Source: a virus. Taken from it: a DNA stretch of 28,400 bases. The position numbers and the translations under genes are program-made. Position 1 is the stretch's first letter. Every line of letters starts with the position of its first letter. Below are positions 7,228 through 23,038 of this stretch, one piece after another. Location: positions 1 to 28,400 of IMG/VR virus record IMGVR_UViG_3300009506_000973; one strand, given 5' to 3'. Under the pieces are notes generated by a model. It worked only from the letters and a program-made list of their open reading frames with translations, ran no database searches and was not told the origin of the DNA.

Positions 7228-8718
7228 TTATTCGACTGTCTCTGTTATACCCGTTATGGATAAAGACGCGTTTGCGTGGCCCGATAGTTCCCATTGGCGC
7301 GACTTGTATCTTCCAAGCCGTCGCCAAGATATGTATGAATCGGCATTAGAACTGGACGCAACCGCCAAATCTTTTGTTTTGTATGAAGTATATGTTCTCT
7401 CGCCATCATTTCTGTAGCGCATGGAAAAATTTAGTGCGCTTGTACTGGATGTACGCTTTGCCCTCAAGTCCAGCCTTGCACTTCTCACCTGTTGGCCATG
7501 GTCTACGTGTCCTGTTCGGTAGAGCCAGTAAATGGCATCTGAACCATCTTGAAAAACTGTGTTATCAAATTTATAGATTTTACCATTAGATTTGTCACCT
7601 ACAAGGCAAACGTTCCATGCAGGGCAATAGCAAAAAGCAATCCCACGAAACAATTCGTGCGCGGGCGTTCCCGTGTTGTAATAAGTCCATTCATACCATT
7701 GGTCCGACAAAAAGTCGTAAACCCACGTTTTTGCAGAGGTTGGAAACGTAATTAGATAATAGGCGCGGCCAAACATGGGAATGTAAAAACCTCGCGCATC
7801 CGTTACCGTATATGTTTGAAAAGACCTATCTACAGATGTTGACAATGGAACAACCGACCGCCCATTTATCATAACAACTCGTTTGTGAGTATCCATATAA
7901 ACAAACGAACCGACCACTTCACAATAGGCAACTGAATGCGGCGAGCGTGTTCCAGAATCTATTCGTCCCTGCAAAAATTTAGAAAAAGGCGTAACTCCAT
8001 CGTCGTGCCAAACCTCAATTGTGCTTTCTCCGATACAATATAATTCGTCACCTGTTGTTCCTATGTACTTTGTTTTATCTCCGAGGGATTCTGCTTCAAA
8101 ATAATCTCCAGCCCAAGTGTCTGCATCGCCAACCGCTGAATAATAAATCACATCATTTTGCGGGTGTAAAGCAAGAAGATACTTGTCCAAATACGCGAGC
8201 TTTGACGCACCTATTGGCGCGTCGGTAGATGTCAGATTTGTATATGATGACGGGCCTATTTTTTTAATCTTTTGGTTGTCGGCAGGGTCTCCATTAACAG
8301 CGTAGGCATAGGCACCAAATTCAACGAACGACGCAGGTGTGCCAGCATCAAAGGTCTGCCCCGCATCTCCGTTGGGTATCTCTGCGAACGTGCCGCTGGA
8401 TGACGTTATTTTCCATAATTGATTTTTAGAAAGTGCCAATGCATAATCCAGACGCTCCCACCACCACAAAGCGTCAATCGGATATGCAGTTCCTAAATCG
8501 CAAAATTGCGTCAAACCGGGCCGCAATGCCAAACCACCAAGCTCATCAGTAATAAGATTTATTTTATCGTCGTTATACGGACCTTTGTTTATTCCTGACG
8601 TTTGGTTAGAATCCAAACGTCCACTAAACCCAACGAGCACAACACCCCCTCGTGAAAGGTTGAACGGATCTACGTTTTTAACGACGCCAAGTTCTATCGG
8701 TATTCTAATTTTTTGCAT
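7228..8718 (-). CDS. P22 gp10-like tail hub / packaged-DNA stabilization protein
   Basis: This 496-residue beta-rich protein resembles the P22 gp10 family, which closes the portal channel after packaging and anchors the tail needle and spikes. Signals include the N-terminal R-P-G-L segment (about residues 66-69), the I-Y-Y-S-x-x-x-D-x-D-T-W segment near residues 187-196, the G-E-S-T-I-E-V-W strand, and the following S-G-T-R-S-P-H-S-V plus D-x-x-x-R-V-V-x-x-x-G-R-S-V-V-P-L-S-T segments. Those are the recurrent blades of the gp10 beta-propeller-like fold. It lies between the tailspike and ejection genes, near a gp4-like adaptor, consistent with this role. The ATG follows the previous stop by 5 bases and no convincing Shine-Dalgarno sequence is present (the upstream sequence is A/T-rich), so translation may be coupled. 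Confidence 0.8.
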   Translation of the reverse strand: MQKIRIPIELGVVKNVDPFNLSRGGVVLVGFSGRLDSNQTSGINKGPYNDDKINLITDELGGLALRPGLTQFCDLGTAYPIDALWWWERLDYALALSKNQLWKITSSSGTFAEIPNGDAGQTFDAGTPASFVEFGAYAYAVNGDPADNQKIKKIGPSSYTNLTSTDAPIGASKLAYLDKYLLALHPQNDVIYYSAVGDADTWAGDYFEAESLGDKTKYIGTTGDELYCIGESTIEVWHDDGVTPFSKFLQGRIDSGTRSPHSVAYCEVVGSFVYMDTHKRVVMINGRSVVPLSTSVDRSFQTYTVTDARGFYIPMFGRAYYLITFPTSAKTWVYDFLSDQWYEWTYYNTGTPAHELFRGIAFCYCPAWNVCLVGDKSNGKIYKFDNTVFQDGSDAIYWLYRTGHVDHGQQVRSARLDLRAKRTSSTSALNFSMRYRNDGERTYTSYKTKDLAVASSSNADSYISWRRLGRYKSRQWELSGHANASLSITGITETVE

Positions 8719-8723
8719 TTTTA

Positions 8724-10721
8724 TTATGTTGAGACATTACTGTTTGCGATTGTAATCCATTCAGTTCCTGTCCATTCTAATTTAAGGGCATCATCAACAG
8801 CGTCAAATGCAAACACTTCGGGATCACTGGTTTCATGGTTGGTTACTGATAAAGTGCTTGCATTGTCTGAATTGGTCATTACAACCAATTTTTGCTGCCC
8901 GGCATACTGACCATCTCCAAGGGTGGCGGTAACTGCTCCACTACCTGAGTTTATATTTGTCACACCCCAAGGTTTGCATGTAAATGTACCTGTCGCAGTT
9001 TCGATCCATCCTCCCTGATTGTGCAATACTCGCAAATCCGTAGGTGTTGAAAGTACATTATATGGCCCGGTATCGTTCCCAATTAGGTTATTTTCGCTGA
9101 TCGTCACATATTCGGCAGAATTACTCCACTCCATACCATACGATTGTGTTTTTGTTCCTTGATCATCATACGAACGGTTTCCATATACAGTTCCATAAGA
9201 CGACCTAACCGATATACCAGCAGTCCCACTCCCGCCATTCTTTACTGTATTGTTTGCAAGAGAAAAGTTTGTCATCCCACCAAACAGCAACGGAGCGCCA
9301 GCCCCAGCCATGGCGATTTCATTTCCCTCAACAACAACACTATCAGTTTGTTGCGATCCGCCGAAATACAAACCATAATCAGAACTTGACCCTCCAACAA
9401 CCTGATTGCCACGAACATATATTCTGCGAGACAATCTTGTAGCATTTGTCACCGCAACATAAACAGCCGCACCGTAGCTGGCTCCAGAAGATTCCCCGCA
9501 TTGGTCAAATTGGTTGTCATGTATATTTACAGATTCGCAACCGTCTTCAATATGGACACCTTGCAATAGGCATTGAATAAATTCATTGTCGTGAACATTC
9601 ACACGCTTTATTGTCGTTCCAACACCCCCAGAAGCACCAAATCCAATTCCTCGTGCATCAGAATTGTCTCCGGCCCTATAAACAGTCAATCCAGATACGT
9701 GTATGTCGGTTGCGGAACCAGTTGGAACATTTATTTCGACGGCATCCCCCGAGATATATTCTATCCGTCCGCCAGATACAGTCAATCCGTTACCCCCGGA
9801 TGATGCCTCAGTAATAATTGGATACATTATGTCACAGGCATAAATATTCTCTATCCTAACGTTTTGCCACGTACTCAATAGATAAATCCCGTATCCATAG
9901 GGAACTGTGGTCGGCCAATTTCGAGTAATTGCTGAATTTATAACCCGTGGATTAATAACATTAACATTGGTACACGCACTTATTTTTAGTCCAATGTTTG
10001 ATATTGCGCCCGACTGATTAAGGTCGAGGGTCATGTTCTCAATTATTATTTCTGATTTCGATGAATAGGCGAAAAGAGTTTTGGATGAAACGGTCGTGTC
10101 CATTTTTAGGATCGCGCCGTCATCAAAAACAATTCTTTGATTGCTGGCACCAACCAACGTATCGCCAGTTATTAAATAAGTGCCATACGGAACAAGAATT
10201 ATTCCAGATTTTGCAAAAGGTAGGTTTAGTGTTGCCGTGTCGTTTGTGCTACCGTCGCCAGTTGCTCCCCACCATTTCGCTTTTATGGTCCCCCTGTTAG
10301 TGAATGTGACTGTACCAGATCCAGAAAATATCTGGCGTTGACCCGCAATAATATTCTCCGCACTGGGAAATGTTAAGGTTTTGCCGCTTGATACTGAAAA
10401 TATCGCTCCTGGTAAAAACACAAAGTCGATATTATCATATGTTGACAAGTCCAAATCGTCTGTAATCGTCCATGACCCGCTATCTAAAATACAAATTGTT
10501 TTTGTAGAAGTTCCAATGTCTGACAATAATGCGCTTAATGTCGTCAATGTTTTTCCCGTACCAGTACCATACGCGGAATATACGTTGACGATATTTTGGA
10601 CTTCATTTGTACCAAACATCTTCCTAAGAGCATTAAGGTTTTCCCCGACTACCTGGCCAAACCTCGTTGCTTCTTTAGGGTCTTGTGTTCTCGGAGGTTT
10701 AACGAGCGTGGTAAGCGCCAT
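8724..10721 (-). CDS. Tailspike with right-handed beta-helix (Pectate_lyase_3-like), 665 aa
   Basis: Residues 1-50 form a short N-terminal segment suited to virion attachment. Residues of about 145-180 carry the classic beta-helix entry signature, with K-W-W-G-A-T-G-D-G-S-T-N-D-T followed by a V-P-x-G-T-Y-L-I strand. From about 190 to 560 the sequence shows repeated Asn-rich coils (such as V-H-D-N-E-F, I-H-D-N-Q-F, V-R-G-N-Q-V, V-E-G-N-E-I, A-N-N-T-V), typical of parallel beta-helix tailspikes that bind or cut surface polysaccharide. The C-terminal 90 residues look like a small beta-domain with D-G-Q-Y-A-G-Q and a W-T-G-T-E-W ending, common at the ends of phage tail proteins. The active site cannot be assigned. 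The ATG overlaps the previous stop (TAATG). The host receptor is therefore probably a polysaccharide such as O-antigen or capsule. Confidence 0.9.
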   Translation of the reverse strand: MALTTLVKPPRTQDPKEATRFGQVVGENLNALRKMFGTNEVQNIVNVYSAYGTGTGKTLTTLSALLSDIGTSTKTICILDSGSWTITDDLDLSTYDNIDFVFLPGAIFSVSSGKTLTFPSAENIIAGQRQIFSGSGTVTFTNRGTIKAKWWGATGDGSTNDTATLNLPFAKSGIILVPYGTYLITGDTLVGASNQRIVFDDGAILKMDTTVSSKTLFAYSSKSEIIIENMTLDLNQSGAISNIGLKISACTNVNVINPRVINSAITRNWPTTVPYGYGIYLLSTWQNVRIENIYACDIMYPIITEASSGGNGLTVSGGRIEYISGDAVEINVPTGSATDIHVSGLTVYRAGDNSDARGIGFGASGGVGTTIKRVNVHDNEFIQCLLQGVHIEDGCESVNIHDNQFDQCGESSGASYGAAVYVAVTNATRLSRRIYVRGNQVVGGSSSDYGLYFGGSQQTDSVVVEGNEIAMAGAGAPLLFGGMTNFSLANNTVKNGGSGTAGISVRSSYGTVYGNRSYDDQGTKTQSYGMEWSNSAEYVTISENNLIGNDTGPYNVLSTPTDLRVLHNQGGWIETATGTFTCKPWGVTNINSGSGAVTATLGDGQYAGQQKLVVMTNSDNASTLSVTNHETSDPEVFAFDAVDDALKLEWTGTEWITIANSNVST

Positions 10722-11461
10722 TAATAATCACATCCAGGTTGAAAAAAAGCATCTTCGGGCGCGTCTTCGGGTTCGAATGAGTTGGCAACATTCAACGCCT
10801 CCTGCGCCAAACGTTCTACTTTATTAAATGTTTCCATAGAGACTTCTGGAAATTCAGGGGCAATGTCTCGCGCCAAAATAAATTTGATTGGTCGATAATA
10901 ATACCCTGGAATATCTATCTCATTCGAACCTACTGAGACAATTTCCAAAGGTTGTCTGTAAACCACAGCCCCACAATACGCGGCTGCTACAGATGTCGAT
11001 GGCTTGCAATCAAGATATAGAGTACCTGTCGAATTTGTACGCTCGTAATACCACCGCGTAGGCATTGATTGCTGAAGTTTGTTCGGTATATTGTAATATT
11101 CGTCATATCCGATTGGCTCTAAGTTCGTATCGGTGGTTGTACTCGTATGCCTCAAAAATACCGTTTTAATTTCCTCTGGTATCTGGATGCTTGCCTGTCC
11201 ACCGGGCTTTAATAAATAGGTGTTTCGCGTAGCCTCAAGTGTCAATGATGCGACTTCGGTTTGCCAAACCCTTACACCTTTAAACATGCGGTTGTTTGGG
11301 CCTTTTGCTTGGAGCAATATATGGTTAAGGGCTTCTATGGCGTTTGATTTTTCATTTGAGGACGGCGCTTCGTCTGGATCGACAACACCCAAAACGCGCA
11401 TAGCCGCCATAACCATCTGAGATGCTGTATATGTCAGTGTATAGGTTCCCGAAGTCGTCAT
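10721..11461 (-). CDS. Head-tail adaptor, P22 gp4-like tail accessory factor
   Basis: The 246-residue product starts M-T-T-S-G-T-Y-T-L-T-Y-T-A-S-Q-M-V-M-A-A-M-R and continues with a G-V-V-D-P-D-E-A-P-S segment and N-A-I-E-A-L-N-H-I-L. This opening is shared by the large group of podovirus head-completion proteins related to P22 gp4. These form a ring below the portal and accept the gp10 hub. The ATG at 11461 has GGAG 6-7 bases upstream. An in-frame upstream start at 11500 is rejected because it would read through the terminator stem-loop. It is followed directly by the tailspike and gp10-like genes, as expected for this assembly step. It is the first gene after the sugar cassette and is separated from it by a strong hairpin. 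Confidence 0.8.
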   Translation of the reverse strand: MTTSGTYTLTYTASQMVMAAMRVLGVVDPDEAPSSNEKSNAIEALNHILLQAKGPNNRMFKGVRVWQTEVASLTLEATRNTYLLKPGGQASIQIPEEIKTVFLRHTSTTTDTNLEPIGYDEYYNIPNKLQQSMPTRWYYERTNSTGTLYLDCKPSTSVAAAYCGAVVYRQPLEIVSVGSNEIDIPGYYYRPIKFILARDIAPEFPEVSMETFNKVERLAQEALNVANSFEPEDAPEDAFFQPGCDY

Positions 11462-11470
11462 GTTTTCTCC

Positions 11471-11506
11471 AAAAATAAAAAGGGCAATGGGGCCTCCCAT
11501 TACCCT
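11471..11506 (-). terminator. Intrinsic terminator-like stem-loop at the end of the sugar cassette
   Basis: Plus-strand 11481-11491 pairs with 11496-11506 (eleven positions with one internal mismatch, four-base loop). On the minus strand it is followed by TTTTTATTTTT. A second, weaker hairpin (stem GCAGA/TCTGC, 11515-11530) lies just before it. The next gene's Shine-Dalgarno sequence follows the T-tract almost immediately. Confidence 0.8.
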
Positions 11507-11546: not shown

Positions 11547-13088
11547 CTATCCGATGTGTTTCAGCAACGCCAACCAGAAATCATGCGGTGTAATCTGCGA
11601 CTGGCATTTCGCAACCCCTGTTTTTTCATCCCGGTTGCAATGCTCCCATCCGTATATCATCTTATGACACGGATAACACTCGCATTTATCTGAATATAGG
11701 CTTATACAATTGTACCAGTCCCGAGAAATATTTTCAATAGAAGAATGCGACAAAAACAAGATTTTTTTGATATCAAGAAACGAAACTGCATTCATAACTC
11801 CTGTTTCTGGCCCAACAATGATATCGGCTTCATGCGCGAAAGCCAATGATTCTCGAATCGTCCATTTCCCGCAACGCTTTAAAACCCGTGGTTCGTTTTC
11901 CCATCCGACCTCAAGAATCTGGTCAAATTCGCTTCCCACGAAGACAACCTTCCAATCGGGCAAATTGAGCATGATTTGGGCCACTGCATTGTCGAGATAT
12001 GGCCACGCCTTGTTAATTCCAGAACCGGACAGCGCCCACAGAATACACTTTCCAATTTTTTTCTTTTGCTTCTTCGCCCATTGGCGTTCCTCAAGCGTGG
12101 CATAAAACCGAGGGAACGGATCAAATTCGACGCCCGCAATTTCATGCATCATCTCAAGATAATTGTGATTCATATACCGATGTCGCGCTGAGGTAGGCCA
12201 ATAGAACGGTGGCCTCCCGGGCAACACCAAATATGAACCCTCAACGGATTCAGAGAAATTGATCCATTTGTCGAACTTTTTAGACCAATATTTCCAAAAT
12301 TCAAACAGGTTATCAGGTGGAACCTGATTTTTGTCCTGCACAAAAAAATGATCTATGTTCGGATCGTGCCTCATCAACTCCATGTTGTTTGGATTACAAA
12401 AAAACGTGATATCGTATTCCTGTTCCCTTAACTTCCTGAGAACAGAAGATGTTTGAATACAGTCCCCCACCCCGCCATACCTGACAACACCGGCACGTTT
12501 TTCTGGAAGCGGGAGATTGCAACTATACATATGGTCTGTTTTTCGTTCAAACTTTTTGTATACCTGGAAAAAGCTGTATTCGTTGCCGGATTTTCGAGTT
12601 TCGTTGACAACAAGATCCCAACCGCCAACAGATTTCATAATATCTATGATATCTTGTGGAATGAAATCGTGTTCATGCGAGTGATTTGAACTGTATGTTC
12701 CGATGTTTGGGAACAATTCCTTGTGCGGAAGATACAACACGAGATGGCCAGCAGGTCGTATCACCCGCCACCATTCACGAAGCACGGACTCCGTGTCTTT
12801 AAAATCTTCGAGTAAGTGGCTGGAAAACACGAAGTCCATGCTTTGCGAACTAAACATTGGAAGTCTTTGTGCATCTGCAACCACATCAACAGACAACCTC
12901 AACATAAGTTCCTCGTTGGAACTCATGTTTTCGCCGTGATACGAAAGATTATCGACGCCAATAAAATGGCGAAATGGCTTATAGTAGGAGCATCCTAAAT
13001 CAAGTCCCATTCCGCGTGTGTACGGGACGATTTCCCATTTTATTTTCGCTGCCTCATTGGATTGTGGTTGGTTAGGGTCAAATGTCAA
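11547..13088 (-). CDS. Fusion of SAM methyltransferase and GT9 (heptosyltransferase-like) glycosyltransferase
   Basis: Residues 1-180 form a class I SAM methyltransferase: G-L-D-L-G-C at 28-33, an acidic strand end G-V-D at 44-46, A-D-A-Q-R-L-P at 71-77, and F-V-F-S-S-H-L-L-E at 86-94, followed by a W-R-V-I-R-P-A-G-H-L segment. Residues of about 197-513 resemble ADP-heptose:LPS heptosyltransferases (GT9): V-R-Y-G-G-V-G-D at 202-209, a G-S-G-x-N-K-x-W-P segment at 355-363, V-V-F-V-G-S at 381-386, and G-P-E-T-G-V-M-N at 426-433. A Cys-rich tail segment follows. The product may transfer a sugar and methylate it, for example as a chain-capping step. The start is a TTG overlapping the previous stop as TTGA, and no in-frame ATG occurs before motif I of the methyltransferase. 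It is the last gene of the sugar cassette. Both domains are clear and the substrate is unknown. Confidence 0.85.
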   Translation of the reverse strand: MTFDPNQPQSNEAAKIKWEIVPYTRGMGLDLGCSYYKPFRHFIGVDNLSYHGENMSSNEELMLRLSVDVVADAQRLPMFSSQSMDFVFSSHLLEDFKDTESVLREWWRVIRPAGHLVLYLPHKELFPNIGTYSSNHSHEHDFIPQDIIDIMKSVGGWDLVVNETRKSGNEYSFFQVYKKFERKTDHMYSCNLPLPEKRAGVVRYGGVGDCIQTSSVLRKLREQEYDITFFCNPNNMELMRHDPNIDHFFVQDKNQVPPDNLFEFWKYWSKKFDKWINFSESVEGSYLVLPGRPPFYWPTSARHRYMNHNYLEMMHEIAGVEFDPFPRFYATLEERQWAKKQKKKIGKCILWALSGSGINKAWPYLDNAVAQIMLNLPDWKVVFVGSEFDQILEVGWENEPRVLKRCGKWTIRESLAFAHEADIIVGPETGVMNAVSFLDIKKILFLSHSSIENISRDWYNCISLYSDKCECYPCHKMIYGWEHCNRDEKTGVAKCQSQITPHDFWLALLKHIG

Positions 13089-13531
13089 GACACAGCATCC
13101 TTCAATAATGCCACCAAATCCGGCCTTCTGGTGTCTGGAGAATAAGAAATCTTGCGCCTGGTAAGTTCCAACTTAATATCATCGTTCCGCAGAAAACCGA
13201 CATCCCGCCCGGCTTTTATTTCCAGCCGCTCTCTAATTTCTTCATCAGATCCGATATGTGACCCCACCCGAAAGTCGTCCATCGTCATTCCGCTTGGAGG
13301 CAATGGACCGCTTGCGCCATACCCGTCCATAAAATCGTCTTCATCTTGGATTTTCGGCTTGGGAATATCCTGTGGTTTTGGCCGCTCAACCTGCTTGGCA
13401 AGTTCCTTGTTGACATCCCCAACGCTACCATCCCTGAAAACTTGTCGCCATTGGGCATCGTAAAGGTTCCCATCGCATTCATAGGCGACACCGACCATGC
13501 CATAAACCCTACCGAAATGCTTGTTTGCCAC
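13085..13531 (-). CDS. Small protein with a C-terminal SAP/HeH-like helix-extension-helix
   Basis: The 148-residue product starts at a GTG that overlaps the preceding TAG stop by one base and is preceded by GGGGG. Residues of about 50-95 are Pro/Asp/Gly-rich and probably unstructured. The C-terminal 38 residues (D-D-I-K-L-E-L-T-R-R-K-I-S-Y and R-R-P-D-L-V-A-L-L) look like a SAP or HeH helix-extension-helix, a small motif seen in nucleic-acid-binding proteins and also as a short helper domain in phage head-completion proteins. The N-terminal part has no match I can name. It lies inside the sugar cassette but does not look like a sugar enzyme. It may be a virion or regulatory passenger. Coding is firm. 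Confidence 0.75.
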   Translation of the reverse strand: MANKHFGRVYGMVGVAYECDGNLYDAQWRQVFRDGSVGDVNKELAKQVERPKPQDIPKPKIQDEDDFMDGYGASGPLPPSGMTMDDFRVGSHIGSDEEIRERLEIKAGRDVGFLRNDDIKLELTRRKISYSPDTRRPDLVALLKDAVS

Positions 13532-13713: not shown

Positions 13714-14100
13714 CTATAAGTCGATTGTGCATTTTTCGGGGTGTTTGCATACCCGCCAACCGACAAATTTTGATTCGCGGCCCTTCATCCTAACCGTGTC
13801 AGACGCTCTGTCAAACGTAGAAATCTCCATGATAACAGAATCTTCAAGTGCCGTTACACTGTGCCACGTCTTCGGCGGAAGATTCAGTTTTTGTTGCGGA
13901 GAAAACATGCGTTCTTTTCCGTTTATATCCAAAACGGTTAATCCCTTAAGAATAACAAATGTCTCATCCTTGACGGGGTGATAATGATATGAAATCTGCC
14001 ACCCAGAATCTATAAATAAATATTTCAAACAATAGTTTGCTTTCCTGTTGTTTACGACTATTTCTTCCTTACCCCACGCTTTTTTGATTATTTTGTTCAT
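13714..14100 (-). CDS. Cupin-fold sugar isomerase-like protein (type II phosphomannose isomerase-like)
   Basis: A single cupin of 128 residues. Cupin motif 1 is Y-H-Y-H-P-V-K-D-E-T-F at 38-48, with metal ligands H39, H41 and E46, and motif 2 carries P-P-K-T-W-H with H80 as the fourth ligand. The N-terminal K-A-W-G-K-E and the C-terminal E-I-S-T-F-D-R-A-S-D-T-V-R resemble the cupin of type II mannose-6-phosphate isomerases and related sugar-phosphate epimerases or isomerases. All four metal ligands are present, so the fold is likely active. Sugar 3,4-ketoisomerases are also cupins and are an alternative. The ATG lies 32 bases inside the sulfotransferase gene, with only a weak ribosome site, so the two are probably translationally coupled. 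Confidence 0.8.
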   Translation of the reverse strand: MNKIIKKAWGKEEIVVNNRKANYCLKYLFIDSGWQISYHYHPVKDETFVILKGLTVLDINGKERMFSPQQKLNLPPKTWHSVTALEDSVIMEISTFDRASDTVRMKGRESKFVGWRVCKHPEKCTIDL

Positions 14101-14755
14101 CTTGGCTTGTGTCCACTAAAAACTTTCCGTCGATTATGACCTGATTCCACTTTACGGGGCGCTTAATGTTTTCGGGCGGAGCCATATCAAGGTATGGTGC
14201 AATTTGGTTTTGAACCACGTCATCAAAAAGCGAGTCAAGCTCCTCGTACATGATGAAACAAACTTTGCCCTTAATTTCATCCGGCATATTAAACCAGCTT
14301 TTTACATGCCCGTTCCATCTTGACTCCATCGTGGCATATTGAAAAAACTGGTATCTCATGCAAGACCCGTAGGGTTGCGCGTTTCTAAATTCCTGCATGG
14401 TTTCACAAACAGGCCCGGCGTGCCACGGCAACGACTTTATGTGTTTCATAAAACTCATCATAACCGCATCCACATTGCGATATATGTAAAAAAACCTAAA
14501 CCCATGCTCATACAACATGGGAATGCACGGAAGCATAAAATAACCGTCATAGTGCGACTTCACAACCTTTCCGTGAAGTTCTTCGGTTTCCAATAAATGT
14601 GAGAAAAAACAAAACATATTTTCGGGCGCGTAAAGCGTGTCTTCCCAGTTTTCAAGGTTGATGAAGTTTTTAGCGTCATACCCGAAGTTTTCAAGCGTGT
14701 TCATCAAAAAATGCGTGCCTGAGCGCTCGTGACTAAATACGCATGGCCATATCAT
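14069..14755 (-). CDS. PAPS-dependent sulfotransferase
   Basis: The 228-residue product shows the motifs of the Sulfotransfer_1-type family. The 5'-phosphosulfate loop is S-H-E-R-S-G-T-H-F-L at residues 8-17. The V-V-K-S-H-Y sequence at 64-69 contains the likely catalytic H68. The 3'-phosphate site is Y-I-Y-R-N-V-D-A-V-M-M-S at 90-101, with R93 and S101. A later Y-E-E-L-D matches the family's conserved strand-turn. It should transfer sulfate from PAPS to a hydroxyl or amine, here most likely on a sugar. The ATG at 14755 overlaps the glycosyltransferase stop and is preceded by AGGGG. A GTG/TTG-type extension further upstream is rejected. It uses PAPS supplied by the host. Phage-encoded sulfotransferases are uncommon. 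All key residues are visible. Confidence 0.88.
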   Translation of the reverse strand: MIWPCVFSHERSGTHFLMNTLENFGYDAKNFINLENWEDTLYAPENMFCFFSHLLETEELHGKVVKSHYDGYFMLPCIPMLYEHGFRFFYIYRNVDAVMMSFMKHIKSLPWHAGPVCETMQEFRNAQPYGSCMRYQFFQYATMESRWNGHVKSWFNMPDEIKGKVCFIMYEELDSLFDDVVQNQIAPYLDMAPPENIKRPVKWNQVIIDGKFLVDTSQDEQNNQKSVG

Positions 14756-15762
14756 AGCAAACCCCTGTAAACCTTTTTCCACAACCGATGTGCGGTGGCA
14801 TCAAAACTATGATTGCTTTGCACCCACATTCTTGAGGCACGTTTTTTGCGATATATTTTTTCGTCCGGCCATGAAAGAACGTCCAATAGCTTTTCCCGCA
14901 ATTCGGATATTGTGTTGGCAATGATAAGTTCGCAGTCTCCGTACTCACGCTCGTAATGATGGAAGTTAAGCGAATTAGTGATTACGATTTTACCCATTGC
15001 CGCGGCTTCAAAAGCCGTGTTCCCCCACTCTCCATATGGTTTTCCGTATGCGATTTCTGCGCATGTATCCAAGAAGATGTCGCACTCAGAAATCATAGCA
15101 AGATTGTCATAATACGCAAATATTCTCTTGTATTCCTCAAGGTCGAACCCGCCGTGCCACGCCAATCTATCCGCAACCGCCTTTTCACGACAGATATCCT
15201 TTATCATCTCTATTATATCAGCGGTTCCCTTCAGTTCTGGTTGGGAAGGAAAATGGCCTACGACTATCTTCTTGCTGTCGATCCTGTCGAAATTTGGCTT
15301 AATAAAATCCGTATCTACCGGGAAATAAATAAGGTGTTCGTTCTTGGCACCAAGGCCAAGCAAATCCGGCATTTGAATGATTGTTGCGTTGGCGATCTGG
15401 TTGTATAGTTCGTTAATAGGTTCGTGCCATACCCTATATTCGCGTCCGCTGTGCTGAAATACAATGTTTTTTGAAAAATAATCTGTTAATCCTACGTCTA
15501 TGAAATGAGAAGACGTATAATGGATAATTTGGGCGTTTTCAGCAAACGGTTTCAATTCGTGATTTTTGAACATCGGCGCGTGTTCGTGCATCCTAACCGC
15601 ATCTTGCATGGACGGATGTATGGGGGTTTGTTCTGGATAAAAATATGGATGATAGTTTCCCTTAAAACCCATGCATTTCAGACCAAGCCTACGCGCACAC
15701 TGAATGAACTTCCAGCCCGTGTTCGCCCAATCGTTGTATGTCAAAAACAGAACATCAAGCAT
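14752..15762 (-). CDS. GT-B fold glycosyltransferase
   Basis: A 336-residue protein with the layout of family GT4/GT1-type enzymes: an N-terminal Rossmann-like half beginning L-D-V-L-F-L-T-Y-N-D, a linker near residue 170 (I-V-V-G-H-F-P-S), and a C-terminal donor-binding half with Y-G-E-W-G-N-T-A-F-E-A-A-A-M-G-K-I-V-I-T at about 239-258, the equivalent of the E-x7-E region that contacts the nucleotide-sugar. An AAAGGA ribosome site precedes the ATG. It overlaps the dehydrogenase gene by 8 bases at its start and the sulfotransferase by 4 bases at its end. It probably adds a sugar made by the neighbouring enzymes to the growing glycan. Donor and acceptor cannot be told from sequence. Confidence 0.85.
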   Translation of the reverse strand: MLDVLFLTYNDWANTGWKFIQCARRLGLKCMGFKGNYHPYFYPEQTPIHPSMQDAVRMHEHAPMFKNHELKPFAENAQIIHYTSSHFIDVGLTDYFSKNIVFQHSGREYRVWHEPINELYNQIANATIIQMPDLLGLGAKNEHLIYFPVDTDFIKPNFDRIDSKKIVVGHFPSQPELKGTADIIEMIKDICREKAVADRLAWHGGFDLEEYKRIFAYYDNLAMISECDIFLDTCAEIAYGKPYGEWGNTAFEAAAMGKIVITNSLNFHHYEREYGDCELIIANTISELREKLLDVLSWPDEKIYRKKRASRMWVQSNHSFDATAHRLWKKVYRGLL

Positions 15763-16597
15763 TTCTTATCCTTTCGCAAATCCGTATGGCATCTCTGGTG
15801 TCTTCTATCCCGAACCCGGCTCCGTCCAATATCCGTTTGTAGCACTCTGTATGCAGTTCTCCGAAATTAGAACTGAGTTCGATCTTTTCTCCATTTATCT
15901 CCAGCGTTCGCCGCGGAACGTCTTTCATGCTAATTGAAAGTCTGAAATTAATTCTGGCACCCAAAAGCAGCATTGCCCCACTTACAACCTCATCTGTCTT
16001 ACATCCGAGTCTTAAACTAATAAGCGGACCAAATAGGTGTGAAAGCAGGTCGAACATATGTATGCCAATATTTGTAGCGAGTCCACCCGATTTCTGAACA
16101 TCAGACTTCCATGAAAACTTGTACCAATTGCCTCTTGGGGTACAGTAATCGACATTCACCAAATGCCCGACATCGTAATCGACAGAAGGAAGATTCGGAT
16201 GTAGTCTAAGTTGTAATATATTCCAAACCCGCCCGCCTGTTTCTTCCTCAAGTCTTTTCAACGCATCCAGGTTGTGCTCATTACATACCAACGGCTTTTC
16301 GCATATCGCATCAGCTCCGATTCTCAGCGCAAATGCGGTATGGCTTGAATGCAGGTAGTTTGGAGACGCGATACTAACATAATCGACTTTTGTTCCAGAA
16401 GCCATCAGCTTATAGATATGCCGGTCAAACCGCTCAAATTCTGTAAAAAAATGGCAGTCGGGGAAATAAGAATCTAAAATCCCAACTGAATCGTGAGGAT
16501 CAAGCGCGGCTATCAGGTTCCCGCCGACCGCTTTGATTGCTGCCATGTGTCTCGGAGCTACGTAACCAGCCGCGCCTATGAGCACAAAGTTCTTCAC
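15755..16597 (-). CDS. wlbA: WlbA/WbpB-type nucleotide-sugar 3-dehydrogenase (Gfo/Idh/MocA family)
   Basis: Starts M-K-N-F-V-L-I-G-A-A-G-Y-V-A-P-R-H-M and continues with the family hallmarks A-L-D-P-H-D-S-V-G-I-L-D-S-Y-F-P (31-46), F-E-R-F-D-R-H-I (54-61), Y-V-S-I-A-S-P-N-Y-L-H (73-83), the catalytic-Lys motif E-K-P-L-V (100-104, K101), N-I-L-Q-L-R-L-H-P (126-134) and S-G-G-L-A-T-N-I-G-I-H-M-F-D (170-183, H180). WlbA/WbpB uses NAD to oxidize C3 of UDP-N-acetylglucosaminuronate on the way to 2,3-diacetamido uronic acids of LPS. It is 280 residues, shorter than the roughly 310-350 of the family, with deletions in the C-terminal half but all visible active-site motifs kept. The start is GTG, overlapping the acetyltransferase stop (GTGA). 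The aminotransferase that normally follows in this pathway (WlbC/WbpE) is not in the window. Confidence 0.88.
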   Translation of the reverse strand: MKNFVLIGAAGYVAPRHMAAIKAVGGNLIAALDPHDSVGILDSYFPDCHFFTEFERFDRHIYKLMASGTKVDYVSIASPNYLHSSHTAFALRIGADAICEKPLVCNEHNLDALKRLEEETGGRVWNILQLRLHPNLPSVDYDVGHLVNVDYCTPRGNWYKFSWKSDVQKSGGLATNIGIHMFDLLSHLFGPLISLRLGCKTDEVVSGAMLLLGARINFRLSISMKDVPRRTLEINGEKIELSSNFGELHTECYKRILDGAGFGIEDTRDAIRICERIRNA

Positions 16598-16932
16598 TTG
16601 GCCGGATTGCCCTTTACGGTTGTAAATGCTGGAACATCTTTAGTCACGACTGCGCCAGCACCAATTATGGCTCCCTCACCGATATTTATTCCTGGCAATA
16701 TCGTTGCGTTGGCTCCAATAACTGCGTTGTCCCCGACTATTGTTGGAGGGCCGTTTTTCCACGCTCCGTTTGACGGCGGATATTTGTCGTTTGTAAAACA
16801 GGCATGGGGGCCGATAAAGACGTTGTTTCCGATAATCACATTGTCAGGTATAAACGCAAATGCCTGGATTTTGCACCCGTCCCCGATTTTGACATCCGGT
16901 CCAATAAAAACGTATTCATAAATTTTGTTCAT
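16594..16932 (-). CDS. Left-handed beta-helix N-acetyltransferase (WlbB/WbpD-like), short
   Basis: Hexapeptide repeats run through almost the whole 112-residue chain (I-G-P-D-V-K, I-G-D-G-C-K, I-G-N-N-V-F, V-G-D-N-A-V, I-G-A-N-A-T, I-G-E-G-A-I, I-G-A-G-A-V) and end with T-K-D-V-P and G-N-P-A-K, as in sugar N-acetyltransferases. The H-A-C-F-T-N-D segment (about 53-59) fits the WlbB/WbpD/QdtC-type enzymes that acetylate a 3-amino sugar. It is adjacent to the WlbA-like dehydrogenase, as in LPS loci, which supports that reading. The chain is shorter than the usual 180-190 residues, and the family's C-terminal extension is missing. ATG at 16932 with AGGA 7 bases upstream; a longer in-frame start at 17025 has no ribosome site and overlaps the LpxD-like gene. 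Confidence 0.78.
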   Translation of the reverse strand: MNKIYEYVFIGPDVKIGDGCKIQAFAFIPDNVIIGNNVFIGPHACFTNDKYPPSNGAWKNGPPTIVGDNAVIGANATILPGINIGEGAIIGAGAVVTKDVPAFTTVKGNPAK

Positions 16933-17566
16933 AACTATTCCTGTTTTTAAGAACCTTCGCCGGATTTCCAATAACCACATCCCCAGGGGACACATCCCTG
17001 ATAACGTTTGCCCCGACTCCCACAAGCGCGTAGTCGCCTATCCTTACTTTATTCATAATCGTTGCGCTTAGTCCGATCCACACCTTTTCCCCAACGACAA
17101 CGCCACCGCCAAACTTCGTGCCAGCAGCAATGCAGCTTCGTGCGCCAATGTTGCAGTTATGCGCAATATGAACATGGTCGTCAATCTTAACATAATCTCC
17201 AACCACCGTATCTTCGATTGTCCCCTGACAAACTGTCGTCAGTGCCCCAATCTCGACGTTGTTCCCAATTATTACACCCCCGGTATGTCCTATGGCAACT
17301 GGAGTTAGATCTTCCATAAACCCGAATGAGAATCCCTTGCTACCTATTACAGCACCGGACTTTATCAAGCATCCATTCCCGACAGCAACCCGGCCACGTA
17401 TCACAACATTGTCTTCAATCACAACGTTGTTTCCGATGAAAACGCCGTCCCAATCAATTGAACAATTGCTTCCAATTTTAAACTGCTTTTCCGCTCTTGG
17501 AAGATACTTTGTGCGGTCTACAGCGAACCTTAACCTGGATTCTATGTATTCGTTTACAGTCGGCAT
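16916..17566 (-). CDS. LpxD-like N-acyltransferase (left-handed beta-helix)
   Basis: This 216-residue protein has about ten hexapeptide turns. The pattern H-T-G-G-V-I-I-G-N-N-V-E-I-G (94-107), followed by Q-G-T-I-E-D-T-V-V-G-D-Y-V-K-I-D-D and H-V-H-I-A-H-N-C-N-I-G (131-141), is characteristic of UDP-3-O-acylglucosamine N-acyltransferase LpxD and its relatives, with the catalytic His in the H-I-A-H-N segment. The N-terminal uridine-binding domain of true LpxD is largely missing, so it is more likely an N-acyltransferase of a related sugar than a lipid A enzyme. It ends G-N-P-A-K like O-/N-acetyltransferases. The ATG at 17566 is chosen because AGGAG stands just upstream. It overlaps the end of the PIG-L gene by 13 bases, so the deacetylase and acyltransferase are made together. 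A free amine produced by PIG-L would be its natural substrate. Confidence 0.82.
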   Translation of the reverse strand: MPTVNEYIESRLRFAVDRTKYLPRAEKQFKIGSNCSIDWDGVFIGNNVVIEDNVVIRGRVAVGNGCLIKSGAVIGSKGFSFGFMEDLTPVAIGHTGGVIIGNNVEIGALTTVCQGTIEDTVVGDYVKIDDHVHIAHNCNIGARSCIAAGTKFGGGVVVGEKVWIGLSATIMNKVRIGDYALVGVGANVIRDVSPGDVVIGNPAKVLKNRNSYEQNL

Positions 17567-18180
17567 ATTCTCCTGTAATTCGCAAAGCACTCAGCGTATT
17601 CAGCGCCTATTTGCGCACCACGTACCCGAGCAAGCCCGTAAACAAATTGGGCGTCGAAATAGTGCCTATCCTGATGCTGAGATTTGTATTGAAACAATGC
17701 AAGCCACTTTTGACGGACATCCTGTTCTGAAATTACAGAAAATGCCTGGGACTGAAAATTCAGGTTGTTCCATAGAATTTCGTATCCCATAAGATCAGTT
17801 TTTTTAAATGCCCTAAACGCTTCTTCTGCGACCACTTTATGATCTTGGTGCATGTCGTCAAGGCATGGAACGAATACGGCATCCGGCATATATTCGTCGC
17901 GTATGTCGATCATGTTCTGTAAAACATCCTGCCTGTAGCTATGCAGTCGTCTATGTGGATAGTCATATACCTTTGTTTGAGATATTCCAAGAACTGTGTT
18001 GGCATCTTGGAATTCTATCTTGCGAGTATGTTTCCCAATTGATTTTCGGCCTATGTTTTCGGATGCCGTAAAAAGAACGTGGACGACATCAGCTCCCGAC
18101 TTGACCAATCGCCAAAGCGTAGCACCACAGCCCATCTCCGCATCATCTGGGTGCGGCGAAAATACCAAGATTCTTTTCAT
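17554..18180 (-). CDS. PIG-L/LmbE-family N-deacetylase
   Basis: The 208-residue product has the zinc-site motif S-P-H-P-D-D-A-E at 8-15, with H10, D12 and D13, and the second metal site L-D-D-M-H-Q-D-H at 107-114, with H111 and H114. Members of this family hydrolyse the N-acetyl group of GlcNAc-containing substrates (GlcNAc-PI, mycothiol and antibiotic or LPS sugars). The length matches the family and the catalytic residues are present. The ATG at 18180 starts at the hydrophobic first strand (M-K-R-I-L-V-F-S), and an in-frame ATG 42 bases upstream has no better ribosome site. It overlaps the methyltransferase gene by 38 bases and the LpxD-like gene by 13, forming a tight deacetylation and re-acylation pair. 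Confidence 0.9.
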   Translation of the reverse strand: MKRILVFSPHPDDAEMGCGATLWRLVKSGADVVHVLFTASENIGRKSIGKHTRKIEFQDANTVLGISQTKVYDYPHRRLHSYRQDVLQNMIDIRDEYMPDAVFVPCLDDMHQDHKVVAEEAFRAFKKTDLMGYEILWNNLNFQSQAFSVISEQDVRQKWLALFQYKSQHQDRHYFDAQFVYGLARVRGAQIGAEYAECFANYRRICRL

Positions 18181-18787
18181 GCGTGTCTTTCTTGGCTTCA
18201 AATACCATGTATGGCATTCCAAATGCCCCGTAAATAAAGTGCCAAAAACCCTTTATCCCCAAATACTCTAAAAACCTCAATAACTCACCCTTCCCCACAG
18301 ACCTTTCAAATGAACCTTTCCCGTGATCCGTAAAACTGTAAAGCGGGATGTTGCCAAATATGTAAAAATTGGGGTTTGAAAGCTCCCAAATTTTTTCCGC
18401 TATTCTGTGGTCGTCATTGAAATGTTCGAAGCTGTCCAAAAACCAAAATGCGTCAAACTTTTTGTCTGTCTTAAATTCGTAAAAATCTGTGCTCTCAGCA
18501 TTCAAACCGTTTCTTTGAGCGAATCCGATTGCCGATTCTGCCAAATCAATGCCGTGCCAATTGTCTGTAAATCCGTCCCCCCATATACTTCTTAGTGCCA
18601 ATGCGTGTATCCCAGTTCCGCATCCGACATCCAATATTTTTAAATTCTTATAATACGGTCGCTTTGAAATCTCCTTCATAACGATTTTCATCTTATCGAA
18701 ATTCATTTTAACATGACCGGAATCAATAATCCTGTCCTGCCAAATTTTATCCCAATATTCCTTTTGAGTGTCTATCCCAGCAAACAT
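18143..18787 (-). CDS. SAM-dependent class I methyltransferase
   Basis: Residues 49-60 read L-K-I-L-D-V-G-C-G-T-G-I, a clear SAM-binding motif I. An H-G-I-D-L-A strand end follows at about 78-83, and F-W-F-L-D-S-F-E-H-F (about 112-121) matches the post-motif strand of small-molecule or sugar methyltransferases such as UbiG/Methyltransf_11 relatives. The ATG lies inside the end of the preceding glycosyltransferase gene (16-base overlap), with GGAG 11 bases upstream. Context points to O- or N-methylation of the sugar, not of DNA: there is no DNA-methylase D/NPPY-type motif. The exact substrate is unknown. Confidence 0.85.
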   Translation of the reverse strand: MFAGIDTQKEYWDKIWQDRIIDSGHVKMNFDKMKIVMKEISKRPYYKNLKILDVGCGTGIHALALRSIWGDGFTDNWHGIDLAESAIGFAQRNGLNAESTDFYEFKTDKKFDAFWFLDSFEHFNDDHRIAEKIWELSNPNFYIFGNIPLYSFTDHGKGSFERSVGKGELLRFLEYLGIKGFWHFIYGAFGMPYMVFEAKKDTHEKNLGIFAAPR

Positions 18788-19833
18788 TTATAAAGTTGCT
18801 CCAATTTATGAATGTGGTTATCCATAATAAAATGCTGCCTTACTTTGACAAGTTGTTTCCGGCATTCTCGGTGCTCTCGCCATCTATCGCGTAGTTCTTC
18901 GATAGATTCAACGGTTATCCCGATTCCGTGTTCTTCTATGAATTCAGAACTATGCTTGGCGTTAATTGCCACGGTCGGAACCAATGCGCCCATATAATCA
19001 AATAATTTGTTTGGGAACGCTACTTCCCATTCAGGAGTATGGAATATGTTGCCGATCAAACCCCAATCATGCCTTGAAATCGCTGGGATTAGCTTATCAT
19101 AAACGCGCCCTTCATGCAAGAACGCAACGCTTTGATATAACTTCTGAAATTCCTCATTAGATGTAATCGGGCCATAAATGTGAAAATCAACTCCAGCTTT
19201 TGCAGCGCTGTGTGCCAGTTCCTCATAGTCCGAATACCGAAAACCCCTCAGGTCTGGGTTTTTTGCGATCTTTGACTTCAGGTCCACGCGGCCCTGATAC
19301 ACAAGACCGCCAAGCCAACCATCTGTTTTGTATTGATAAAACGTAAGCGGTAGATATGACGGAAGAATAAGATGCGGTTGTTCAAGTGCGAATTCGTTTA
19401 GGATTATGTTTGCGAACGGACGCGACGGAAACACAAGGGCGTCTGCAAGCTGAAAATTGTTTCGCTCCTCTGTCTGCACTCTAAAAACAAAATTGCCCCG
19501 ATCACGCTGTTCAAGTTCTTCTTCAGGTGTCATTCGCGCCAGATAAGAGTCGTGAACGTCTAACACAACTGGTTTGTCACAGCGTTCTTTTATCATCGTG
19601 ACAAACCAACTTGGCTCGTTATGACAATGAAACAGGTCTACGTGAGGGGCATATTTCTCGATTGCTTCTATGTAATGATTAAGGCCGACTGCGTATGAAA
19701 AACTATCGTAGGCTTCGTAAAAAGAGGGAAGCGCCTTGGCTATCATGTGTACCTTGTGGCCACGGCGCAAGAGTGGTATCGCCTGTTTCTGACATCGAAT
19801 ACAGGCGTGGCCGCTTACAAAACAGATTTCCAT
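18772..19833 (-). CDS. GT-B fold glycosyltransferase (first gene of the sugar cassette)
   Basis: 353 residues with GT4-like organisation. The N-terminal half starts M-E-I-C-F-V-S-G-H-A-C-I-R-C-Q-K-Q-A-I-P and has H-V-D-L-F-H-C-H-N-E (about 64-73) and V-V-L-D-V-H-D-S (about 88-95). The C-terminal half has F-P-N-K-L-F-D-Y-M-G-A-L-V-P-T-V-A (about 272-288), the donor-binding strip of the family. An AGGGAG ribosome site precedes the ATG. The gene starts about 20 bases after a GC-rich hairpin that ends the capsid gene block, and its end overlaps the methyltransferase gene. The donor is probably one of the sugars prepared by the cassette; the acceptor is unknown. Confidence 0.85.
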   Translation of the reverse strand: MEICFVSGHACIRCQKQAIPLLRRGHKVHMIAKALPSFYEAYDSFSYAVGLNHYIEAIEKYAPHVDLFHCHNEPSWFVTMIKERCDKPVVLDVHDSYLARMTPEEELEQRDRGNFVFRVQTEERNNFQLADALVFPSRPFANIILNEFALEQPHLILPSYLPLTFYQYKTDGWLGGLVYQGRVDLKSKIAKNPDLRGFRYSDYEELAHSAAKAGVDFHIYGPITSNEEFQKLYQSVAFLHEGRVYDKLIPAISRHDWGLIGNIFHTPEWEVAFPNKLFDYMGALVPTVAINAKHSSEFIEEHGIGITVESIEELRDRWREHRECRKQLVKVRQHFIMDNHIHKLEQLYKCLLG

Positions 19834-19890: not shown

Positions 19891-20427
19891 TTACACCTGC
19901 CACTTGGTAGAAGTGTCATACTTTCGCACCCAATCAATGAAGAACGAAAGTGTTCCACCTCCGAGGATGGTTCCAACAGCGGCAGCAACAGTTCCATCGT
20001 CGCTGTTTGGAGTCGCAAGAAAGATAGTCACAAAGCGTCCCGCTTCGATTTCAGCCGAAGACGGGGTAATGTCGCTTGCAATGCCAAATCTTGCGGTTCG
20101 TCCACCGGCCCCACAAATTACATGGGTTGATCCGAGCATCGTTGACCTTGCGGTTCCAGAAGAATTCGATTTGTAAAATTCAACCGGAATGCGCTGGCGC
20201 TTCACGCTACCAGTACCGTTGTCGGCGCTGGCAAGTGTTGCACAAACAAAGGCACCCATTTTTTTAACCGCAATCGGGCCTTTCGGATACCACCGGGCGA
20301 CAACAGATTCAGTCGTGCCGGAAGCAATTGTAAATCCGCTGGCACATTCACCGCCGTACTTTCTCGGAAGCCCAAACCAAGTTCGCTCAATAACTCCGAA
20401 CTTTGCATCATCATATGTGTTAGGCAT
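19891..20427 (-). CDS. Small virion protein following the capsid gene (possible decoration protein)
   Basis: The 178-residue protein is Gly/Ala/Thr/Ser-rich and probably beta-structured, with a hydrophobic G-T-V-A-A-A-V-G-T-I-L-G-G-G segment near residues 144-157. I recognise no family. A strong ribosome site (AAGGAGGT) before the ATG predicts high expression, as expected for a structural protein made in many copies. It lies between the major capsid gene (28-base gap) and the sugar cassette. A head-decoration or head-tail role is the natural guess, and its surface-exposed Ser/Thr-rich character would make it a possible glycan acceptor. Both roles are inferences from place and composition. Confidence 0.75.
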   Translation of the reverse strand: MPNTYDDAKFGVIERTWFGLPRKYGGECASGFTIASGTTESVVARWYPKGPIAVKKMGAFVCATLASADNGTGSVKRQRIPVEFYKSNSSGTARSTMLGSTHVICGAGGRTARFGIASDITPSSAEIEAGRFVTIFLATPNSDDGTVAAAVGTILGGGTLSFFIDWVRKYDTSTKWQV

Positions 20428-20454: not shown

Positions 20455-21399
20455 TTATGAGGTCGAACCCCACTTCACGATTCTTGCCTGTGCGACCGCA
20501 GTATGAACGATCCCGAATCCGCCCAAATAATACCAGGCGACACCTTTTGAACGTCCGTAGTCGCTGGGGATCTTGCCGCGCATTTCTTCCGGCACCGCAA
20601 TTGCCTCTGCAACCGTATCTTCTCCAAAGAAGAAAATCCAGTCACTGTTTGTCCATCCAGCCTTGGCGATGTTGGTTTGCTCAACGTACCGGCAATTCTC
20701 ATACCTTCCGATTTCACCGTTGGCAATCATCGCAAAACCCTCTGGGGTGTACTGATGGATGCTTTCCAGGTTGTTCTTGAAAGTCCGAATTGTCGTCGGC
20801 CACGTTAGGGCATAATAATCGTCATTCACATAGGGCGGAATATTGCGCTCTTTGAGAACGTCGATAATCGCTTTGGCATGGCTGTTGTTAAACGCGCAGG
20901 TCGAACTGATCTTGCTGGCAACCGTCGAGTTGGTTGTCAGCGTGACAGCGGAAGTGGACGTGCCGGAAGTCGGCTGAATCCACAACGGGGTCAGGTTGAA
21001 CTGCGCATGTGCCAAGATGTCGAAGGCTTTCTTGGCGTCGTTTTTCAGAACCTTGTTGATAATCTCCGTCACTGGATGTTCGCTAAGATTGTCCAGTTTT
21101 TGAGAGAACGGAACGCTGTTTCCAGCCTCCGTAATTGTCAGGGTTCCTTGTGTGATTGTGAAATTGCTTTCAGGCATGGTGTTGGTTTCAGCCAACGTTG
21201 TGCCTTGAGTCGCAATATCGCTATAAACATTCCAATGGTAGGTATCGCCCTTTGATTTGCCCTGCTGAGATGCGTCCTTTACGTCGCAAAATTGGCGGAA
21301 CTTGACTAGCGGCTGTACCGCCATTCTCAGCTTTTTGGACAGGTTAAGGGCATACATATAGCCGCCAAGAGAACTGACGGCCCAAAGCTGTCCACTCAT
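20455..21399 (-). CDS. Major capsid protein, HK97 fold, N4 gp56-like family
   Basis: The 314-residue protein has the layout of the N4-gp56 major capsid family: a strand-rich N-terminal arm (W-N-V-Y-S-D-I-A-T near 56-64), a T-L-A-E-T-N-T-M-P-E segment (68-77), then T-I-T-E-A-G-N-S-V-P-F-S-Q-K-L-D-N-L-S (about 88-106), a long helix (I-I-N-K-V-L-K-N-D-A-K-K-A-F-D), and a C-terminal strand region with P-E-E-M-R-G-K-I-P-S-D-Y-G. It is shorter than N4 gp56 (about 400 residues), as in many environmental relatives. It comes right after the scaffold gene and has a GGAGG ribosome site 10 bases before the ATG. The gene is the core of the head module and its product assembles the shell around the scaffold. 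Confidence 0.88.
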   Translation of the reverse strand: MSGQLWAVSSLGGYMYALNLSKKLRMAVQPLVKFRQFCDVKDASQQGKSKGDTYHWNVYSDIATQGTTLAETNTMPESNFTITQGTLTITEAGNSVPFSQKLDNLSEHPVTEIINKVLKNDAKKAFDILAHAQFNLTPLWIQPTSGTSTSAVTLTTNSTVASKISSTCAFNNSHAKAIIDVLKERNIPPYVNDDYYALTWPTTIRTFKNNLESIHQYTPEGFAMIANGEIGRYENCRYVEQTNIAKAGWTNSDWIFFFGEDTVAEAIAVPEEMRGKIPSDYGRSKGVAWYYLGGFGIVHTAVAQARIVKWGSTS

Positions 21400-22732: not shown

Positions 22733-23038
22733 TCATGTATCCGAAATCTGCTCCATTTCGTGTTGTTTTTCGAGAAGCGCAAGCGCCTGTTCTCCGCGCT
22801 TTATGGCCTCTGCTATCCAAATCAAAGCCTTTTCCGCTGCCTGAATTTTTAACTGAAGGTCTCTTACGATCCCTGTATTGGACGCATCGCAAAACTTTAA
22901 TTGCGCCGTGTATTTCTCGGACTCCTCAAGCGATTGATTGATAAGCCATTGACCAAGCCCGGATTTCCAAAACTTGTCGGCATCCTCGCCAAGAATTACA
23001 GCCTCGTAAAGCCTAGCCTTGCTGTCCTGCTGCTGCAT
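22733..23038 (-). CDS. Small helical protein between portal and scaffold, unknown
   Basis: A 101-residue charged, all-helical protein (Glu/Lys/Gln/Ala-rich). I recognise no family. It starts at an ATG at 23038 inside the end of the portal gene (26-base overlap), with GGGGAG about 13 bases upstream, a loose spacing. An in-frame TTG at 23059 has no clear ribosome site of its own. Genes of this size between portal and scaffold are common in podoviruses and usually remain hypothetical. It ends about 55 bases before the branched terminator-like structure. Confidence 0.75.
   Translation of the reverse strand: MQQQDSKARLYEAVILGEDADKFWKSGLGQWLINQSLEESEKYTAQLKFCDASNTGIVRDLQLKIQAAEKALIWIAEAIKRGEQALALLEKQHEMEQISDT

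Follow-up and report, generated by a model that had tools for sequence, protein, structure and literature searches.

What does a tailed phage do with a single gene that encodes both a methyltransferase and a sugar-transferring enzyme? The question is raised by a locus in an uncultivated phage known from a 28.4-kb IMG/VR virus record, the whole of which is referred to here as the window. The gene occupies one unbroken frame of 513 codons (513 aa) running from position 13088 to 11547 on the minus strand, a strand that the original prediction had not stated; read on the plus strand, 11547–13088 is interrupted by many stops. Its identification as a fusion of a SAM methyltransferase and a GT9 glycosyltransferase (MT-GT9) is supported by the frame, Pfam matches, an AlphaFold model, fold matches and full-length fused homologues, and the claim that both domains reside in one chain is thereby confirmed.

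The start codon is TTG (13088–13086), within the minus-strand sequence GAAGGATGCTGTGTCTTGACA. As had been predicted, it overlaps the TGA that ends the upstream gene, in the tetranucleotide TTGA (13085–13088, minus strand). No alternative ATG, GTG or TTG is present in the MT-GT9 frame between the previous stop and this codon, and GAAGGA at 13103–13098, nine bases upstream of the TTG, is a plausible ribosome site for the gene. The conserved N-terminus of 32 relatives begins at the same point as the window start; among the 33 aligned starts, TTG is also used in L079 and GTG in L027. The upstream gene (13085–13531, minus strand; 148 aa) resembles, in its N-terminal part, a 130-aa gene located directly upstream of MT-GT9 in L002.

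A class I SAM methyltransferase domain spans residues 6–183 (12540–13073, minus strand), as judged by Pfam, fold and the motif I sequence LDLGCS, with Methyltransf_11 (PF08241) matching residues 69–118 at 8.1e-11. The GT9 domain, of the GT-B fold, comprises residues 193–513 (11550–12512, minus strand) according to Pfam, alignment and fold; here Glyco_transf_9 (PF01075) matches residues 309–432 at 6.5e-5, its 22.8 bits lying narrowly above the cut-off of 22. Structure prediction with an input of 33 family members gave a model with both folds (mean pLDDT 89.0, pTM 0.87). Its N-terminal part (about 7–180) matches class I methyltransferases with Z of about 16, and its GT part (193–513) matches the GT9 structure 3tov (Z 23.4), WaaF 1psw (Z 22.3), and WaaC and TibC (Z about 20 each). 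Both domains thus appear to be sound. The best matches in a BFVD search, judged by length and coverage, were single-domain phage GT or MT proteins.

Eight residues of the GT9 half (R203, G205, G208, D209, K360, E428, T429 and G430) are invariant in 33/33 aligned members; presumably the GD pair, K360 and E428-T429-G430 play the catalytic roles typical of GT9. Also invariant in this alignment are four cysteines near the C-terminus, arranged as C471-x2-C474-H-x8-C484-x10-C495 (11604–11678, minus strand), which by analogy with TibC may form a metal finger. The iron finger of TibC uses Cys 339, 342, 358 and 370, according to the consulted part of PMC4358343. The cluster is no proof of kinship with TibC, because a similar one occurs in 16 of 29 bacterial GT9 proteins that could be read (30 loci, one of which was dropped for a stop within the frame). 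Neither fold nor cysteine cluster separates protein-modifying from LPS-modifying GT9 enzymes.

The gene is phage-encoded, in a virus record with capsid, portal and terminase-like genes, and it belongs to the head-neck block, a point absent from the original prediction. The main genes of the window all lie on the minus strand, in the following order: terminase (cut at the window end), an SU10-type portal protein (23013–25037; Pfam SU10_portal, 6.1e-27), the major capsid protein (20455–21399; profile match to phrog_1357), a 178-aa protein directly after it (19891–20427), a nine-gene sugar cassette (13714–19833), the 148-aa protein, MT-GT9, a neck protein (10721–11500; phrog_12985) whose homologue directly follows MT-GT9 in many relatives, a beta-helix protein, a head closure Hc3-like protein (7228–8718; profile match), and then large proteins. 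Its position makes the 178-aa protein a candidate decoration protein and a candidate acceptor of the sugar. By Pfam and further searches, the cassette encodes a GT4-like protein, a methyltransferase, a PIG-L deacetylase, two hexapeptide acyltransferases, a Gfo/Idh dehydrogenase, a second GT, a sulfotransferase-like protein and a cupin. This places sulfotransferase-like and PIG-L proteins within a phage head block (13714–19833), and the second GT had no match among 50,697 phage records. At the window end (26608–28398, minus strand) the terminase frame begins inside an apparent intein, its N-terminal part being cut off; a weak LAGLIDADG_3 match (E 3.7e-4, below the cut-off) is followed by ...REMIPTHN/S at the presumed Walker A site.

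The idea that such a cassette is the main content between the capsid gene and MT-GT9 in all relatives was not borne out. Among the relatives examined the large cassette is particular to the window, and the corresponding stretch elsewhere holds small ORFs and large virion-type proteins; other sugar genes at this spot are a GT2 gene in L075 and TylF-like methyltransferase genes in L007 and L044. Large variable proteins of virion type (tailspike/pectate-lyase-like, laminin-G or virion structural) are encoded between the capsid gene and MT-GT9 in L022 (7548–9212), L046 (7645–9639) and L086 (12420–14597), and these are possible head fibres.

Could the fusion itself be an error? The original prediction had named a sequencing frameshift joining two genes, to be revealed by separate genes in close relatives, as the finding that would overturn it. 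Split pairs do exist in some relatives, as a merger of two genes by sequencing or assembly error would lead one to expect, but five of the first six viral-contig relatives, the nearest ones, are fused, and the sixth (L007) has separate genes in reversed order. Fused proteins with the same domain order are common: in a 33-sequence alignment, 32 others align end to end with the window protein, with full-length fused homologues at 38–54% identity. Another part of the MT-GT9 family, used as query, retrieved at least 515 contigs that encode it, and all of the 80 best are fused. The fusion is also carried by isolate genomes: a scan of bacterial genomes yielded 79 loci, and in the first 30 (L091–L120) both domains share one frame in 27 and GT9 stands alone in three, with a window-type capsid gene found by blastp in 23. 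Given these counts of fused homologues, we reject the artefact and regard it as next to impossible. One bacterial-genome locus, L094 (3388–6058), carries tandem copies: after a fused MT-GT9 gene come a second MT gene, which is separate, and the beginning of a further GT9.

A tree of the GT9 part (117 rows) requires at least nine changes of architecture. It includes a starred clade of split genes, methyltransferase first, nested within fused ones, so that the fusion stands; one split pair with the GT first; several rows with a decayed MT domain; and a starred clade of four GT9-only rows together with L021, on a very long branch. The fusion is real and, as far as the sequences indicate, evolutionarily old. 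It has been split in relatives at least twice, and the MT part has been lost or has decayed several times while GT9 was retained. The motif I pattern occurs in 126 of 136 fused members (the ten fused rows lacking it were inspected in part) and in two of seven rows labelled decayed. The GD of GT9 is found in 159/159 members and the MT is lost or decayed in some, which suggests that GT9 is the part retained by selection. Since some members have no more than GT9 and the MT domain of others has decayed, methylation is dispensable. The halves of split genes lie near one another in L007, L013, L014, L017, L022, L024, L030, L031 and L046, which argues that MT and GT9 act in one pathway.

The association with capsid genes was examined from two sides. 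In a sample of 80 of at least 599 loci, chosen by the capsid protein alone, GT9 is present in 32 of the 34 loci whose sequence continues for at least 6 kb past the capsid gene (24 fused, 7 split and 1 GT9 alone; the 24 follow a script rule that counts L080, with its decayed MT domain, as fused). The two misses are L065, with GT9 beyond 10 kb, and L020, without it. When the downstream limit was set at 2.5 kb instead, GT9 was found in 44 of 49 loci, L074 being without it and L023 and L050 undecided. A recognised neck gene immediately follows GT9 in 29 loci, with a median of −18 bases between the frames.

The other side is the scan already described, made with MT-GT9 itself and hence not chosen by capsid; its best 80 of at least 515 contigs are best matches to one query with near-copies included, and a capsid gene lies 7–1147 bases upstream of MT-GT9 in 76 of them (median 123.5; 53 within 200). 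In these 76 the capsid proteins are protease::HK97 capsid fusions (74) or of the window type (2). Of the remaining four loci, two begin at a contig end, and in L263 (4342–7464) and L266 (5297–7560) MT-GT9 lies between terminase and portal, two genes ahead of the capsid gene; in L266 a methyltransferase-like frame precedes it. The phages with protease::capsid fusions are lambda-like, with Phage_portal_2 (3.8e-91), Phage_attach, FII-like and TMP (tape-measure) genes. Their capsid protein is not recognisably related to that of the window (best blastp E 0.02 over 41 aa), and both types touch PF05065. A third kind is represented by L119, in which a GT9 with an MT-less N-terminal region follows an ordinary HK97-type capsid gene. 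Capsid type switches only once on the GT9 tree, so the two large capsid groups represent few independent events; a capsid gene swapped in place would give the same gene order.

Two further features of these loci may be recorded. Some members of the protease::capsid group (L111, L109 and L114; alignment A5) have ESM or ESV in place of the ETG motif of GT9, which may alter donor use. Some MT-GT9 phages have group I introns (Rfam RF00028) within their capsid gene or next to it, and these split the capsid reading frame, the sites being L002 2589–2895 and 3503–3795, L003 4356–4649 and L096 6115–6399; one of the two introns in L002 has a 285-aa ORF.

The gene is an optional part of this head, because it is missing from L020 and L074 and from the cultured relatives PTXU04 and Bas95 (E. 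coli phages) and Vibrio phage 219E41.1. The three cultured phages have a capsid protein about 51% identical and only small genes between the capsid and neck genes. The fusion was not found at ≥80% query coverage among 50,697 phage records, and none of the plasmids searched carried it over ≥80% of the query. Among 200 genomes of the Paraburkholderia family the single match was the centre genome itself. In Paraburkholderia sp. C35 the MT-GT9 region occupies about 20142–77457 of contig NZ_QBUY01000010.1, which is 148 kb long. A perfect 25-base repeat flanks it on either side, with copies near 20142 and 77433; it adjoins a phage integrase gene, with lysyl-tRNA synthetase and release-factor-like frames (named by eye) outside. 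This region is a probable prophage of 57.3 kb, to judge from its sequence. An integrase gene is located about 38 kb from MT-GT9 in P. rhynchosiae WSM 3937 and Aromatoleum anaerobium LuFRes1. The hosts look mostly Gram-negative.

Several known systems resemble parts of this one. For mycobacteriophages it is established that phage glycosyltransferases modify the capsid and the tail tube (Freeman 2023, via the consulted parts of PMC11256854, PMC12363180 and PMC12619734). Virion glycosylation in Che8, Corndog and Myrna likewise involves a phage-encoded GT, and the capsid is a target in those phages, as is proposed for MT-GT9. However, the parts of these sources consulted describe no GT9-methyltransferase fusion; in Maravista they place the GT genes near the 3′ end of the genome, whereas MT-GT9 lies beside the capsid gene, and the hosts here look mostly Gram-negative. 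The nearest solved folds are WaaC/WaaF and the Veillonella GT9 3tov (Z 20–23), but in MT-GT9 the glycosyltransferase shares its chain with a methyltransferase, and the gene belongs to the head-neck block of a phage and not to an LPS locus, so that gene location does not mark it as an LPS heptosyltransferase. TibC, of the BAHT family, shares the GT9-like GT-B fold and four C-lobe cysteines, and that family glycosylates protein. MT-GT9 lacks, however, the N-terminal beta-barrel of BAHT proteins (TibC/Aah), since residues 6–183 form a methyltransferase fold here. ADP-heptose is the donor both for the GT9 enzymes of LPS synthesis and for TibC, as stated in the part of PMC4358343 consulted.

Pseudomonas phage D3 (orf12-orf13) and PAJU2, PMG1, Psp6, Mulvp2 and Eowyn have a methyltransferase gene after a GT9-like gene; in the cultured phages D3, Psp6 and Mulvp2 this pair lies within the head-tail block. 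These are separate genes in GT-MT order, unlike MT-GT9, and kinship is weakly indicated (hhalign probability for the D3 pair 68% for GT and 63% for MT). Such side-by-side GT9-like and methyltransferase genes of cultured phages are the loci L284 (7001–8396, phage D3 orf12-orf13), L283, L285, L286 and L287. For three prophages of P. aeruginosa, PMC10449497 reports, in its consulted part, adjacent GT9 and methyltransferase genes, which it interprets as modifying DNA or O antigen; in one such prophage the pair lies in the head-tail block.

We propose that MT-GT9 is an enzyme made late by the phage to put sugar on a head protein, methylation being a further step that can be omitted, and assign this reading a probability of roughly 0.6. 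Its observed basis is the fused gene with both folds, the conserved GT catalytic residues and the recurring position beside unrelated capsid kinds. A soluble GT-B enzyme encoded in the head-neck block next to different kinds of capsid gene points to a sugar on a head protein. Timing, donor, acceptor, methylation site and benefit are inferred as follows. MT-GT9 would be made together with the head and neck proteins, and its GT9 half would attach an activated sugar to the capsid protein, to the small protein encoded after it or to a head fibre. The donor is probably a nucleotide sugar taken from the Gram-negative host, either ADP-heptose or one like it; ADP-heptose is the likeliest, because GT9 enzymes use it and Gram-negative hosts make it. 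The MT half, which probably acts on the same glycan since the halves are fused or kept near, would O-methylate the added sugar or a neighbouring one, and the nine-gene cassette of the window may build, modify or lengthen this glycan. Particle masking, stability or escape from host surface defences could be the benefit. The support comes from gene position and homology, and against the proposal count the absence of the gene from L020, L074 and the three cultured relatives, its location before the portal gene in L263 and L266, the single switch of capsid type on the GT9 tree, and the fact that protein-modifying and LPS-modifying GT9 enzymes share fold and cysteine cluster.

A WaaC/WaaF-like GT9 might instead alter the LPS of the infected cell or lysogen, blocking superinfection or freeing progeny. 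GT9 is the LPS heptosyltransferase family, some carriers are prophages, and the O-antigen reading of the P. aeruginosa pairs in PMC10449497, as far as consulted, goes in this direction. We nevertheless consider host surface conversion unlikely, as the gene lies within a same-strand head-neck block near unrelated capsid kinds, a Pfam search of 20 window proteins revealed no flippase-type partner (GtrA/GtrB), and one carrier contig, L121, was binned to an actinobacterium (binning that may be wrong). A slightly lower rating is given to the function originally predicted, in which GT9 adds the last sugar of a chain, MT methylates it and growth ends, as in WbdD-type O-antigen termination. The fusion and the nearby split pairs agree with it, and further GTs of the window could build a chain. 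WbdD too joins methylation to glycan assembly, with methylation-linked chain-length control (PMC3482155, consulted in part), but it is a kinase-methyltransferase without GT9, and no polymer is known for MT-GT9. Many loci (partly scanned) lack another recognised GT between the capsid gene and MT-GT9, and in some members the MT domain is absent or decayed. The original prediction is therefore upheld for a real, old fusion whose halves stay near each other when split, and is not supported for the chain-ending cap as a general function. Because MT was lost in several lineages, methylation is better seen as an accessory step than as a necessary cap.

Transfer of sugar onto modified bases of the phage DNA is very improbable. 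The GT9 family is not known to include enzymes that glycosylate DNA, Pfam identified no base-modifying partner in the 20 window proteins searched, and nothing about a location next to capsid genes suggests a DNA target. What speaks for such hypermodification is that phage glycosyltransferases often act on DNA (PMC12619734, in the part consulted).

Returning to glycosylation of the head, a wider proposal may be put forward tentatively, at a little under even odds: a large, unnamed capsid-glycosylation system in which a fused enzyme encoded near the capsid gene of unrelated heads would place an O-methylated sugar on the virion, the GT9 core being kept, methylation being gained, split and lost, and hypervariable neighbours supplying the acceptor or extending the glycan. 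Phage-made capsid glycans and GT9 enzymes of the WaaF/TibC type are already known; the open-licence literature searched yielded no description of the capsid-linked fused form.

In the sources consulted, the proof so far that phages coat their own particles with sugar comes from mycobacteriophages. The closeness of MT-GT9 to a head-protein gene in hundreds of mostly uncultured tailed phages suggests shells coated with a methylated sugar, and a family of at least 515 contigs predicts virion glycosylation in phages that infect many hosts from the environment, mostly Gram-negative ones; a few carriers are prophages in culturable bacteria. If true, sugar on the capsid would matter for how stable the particles are, how they are recognised and how they interact with the host surface, and the family would be a source of new enzymes, both GT9 and methyltransferase, for glycosylating proteins.
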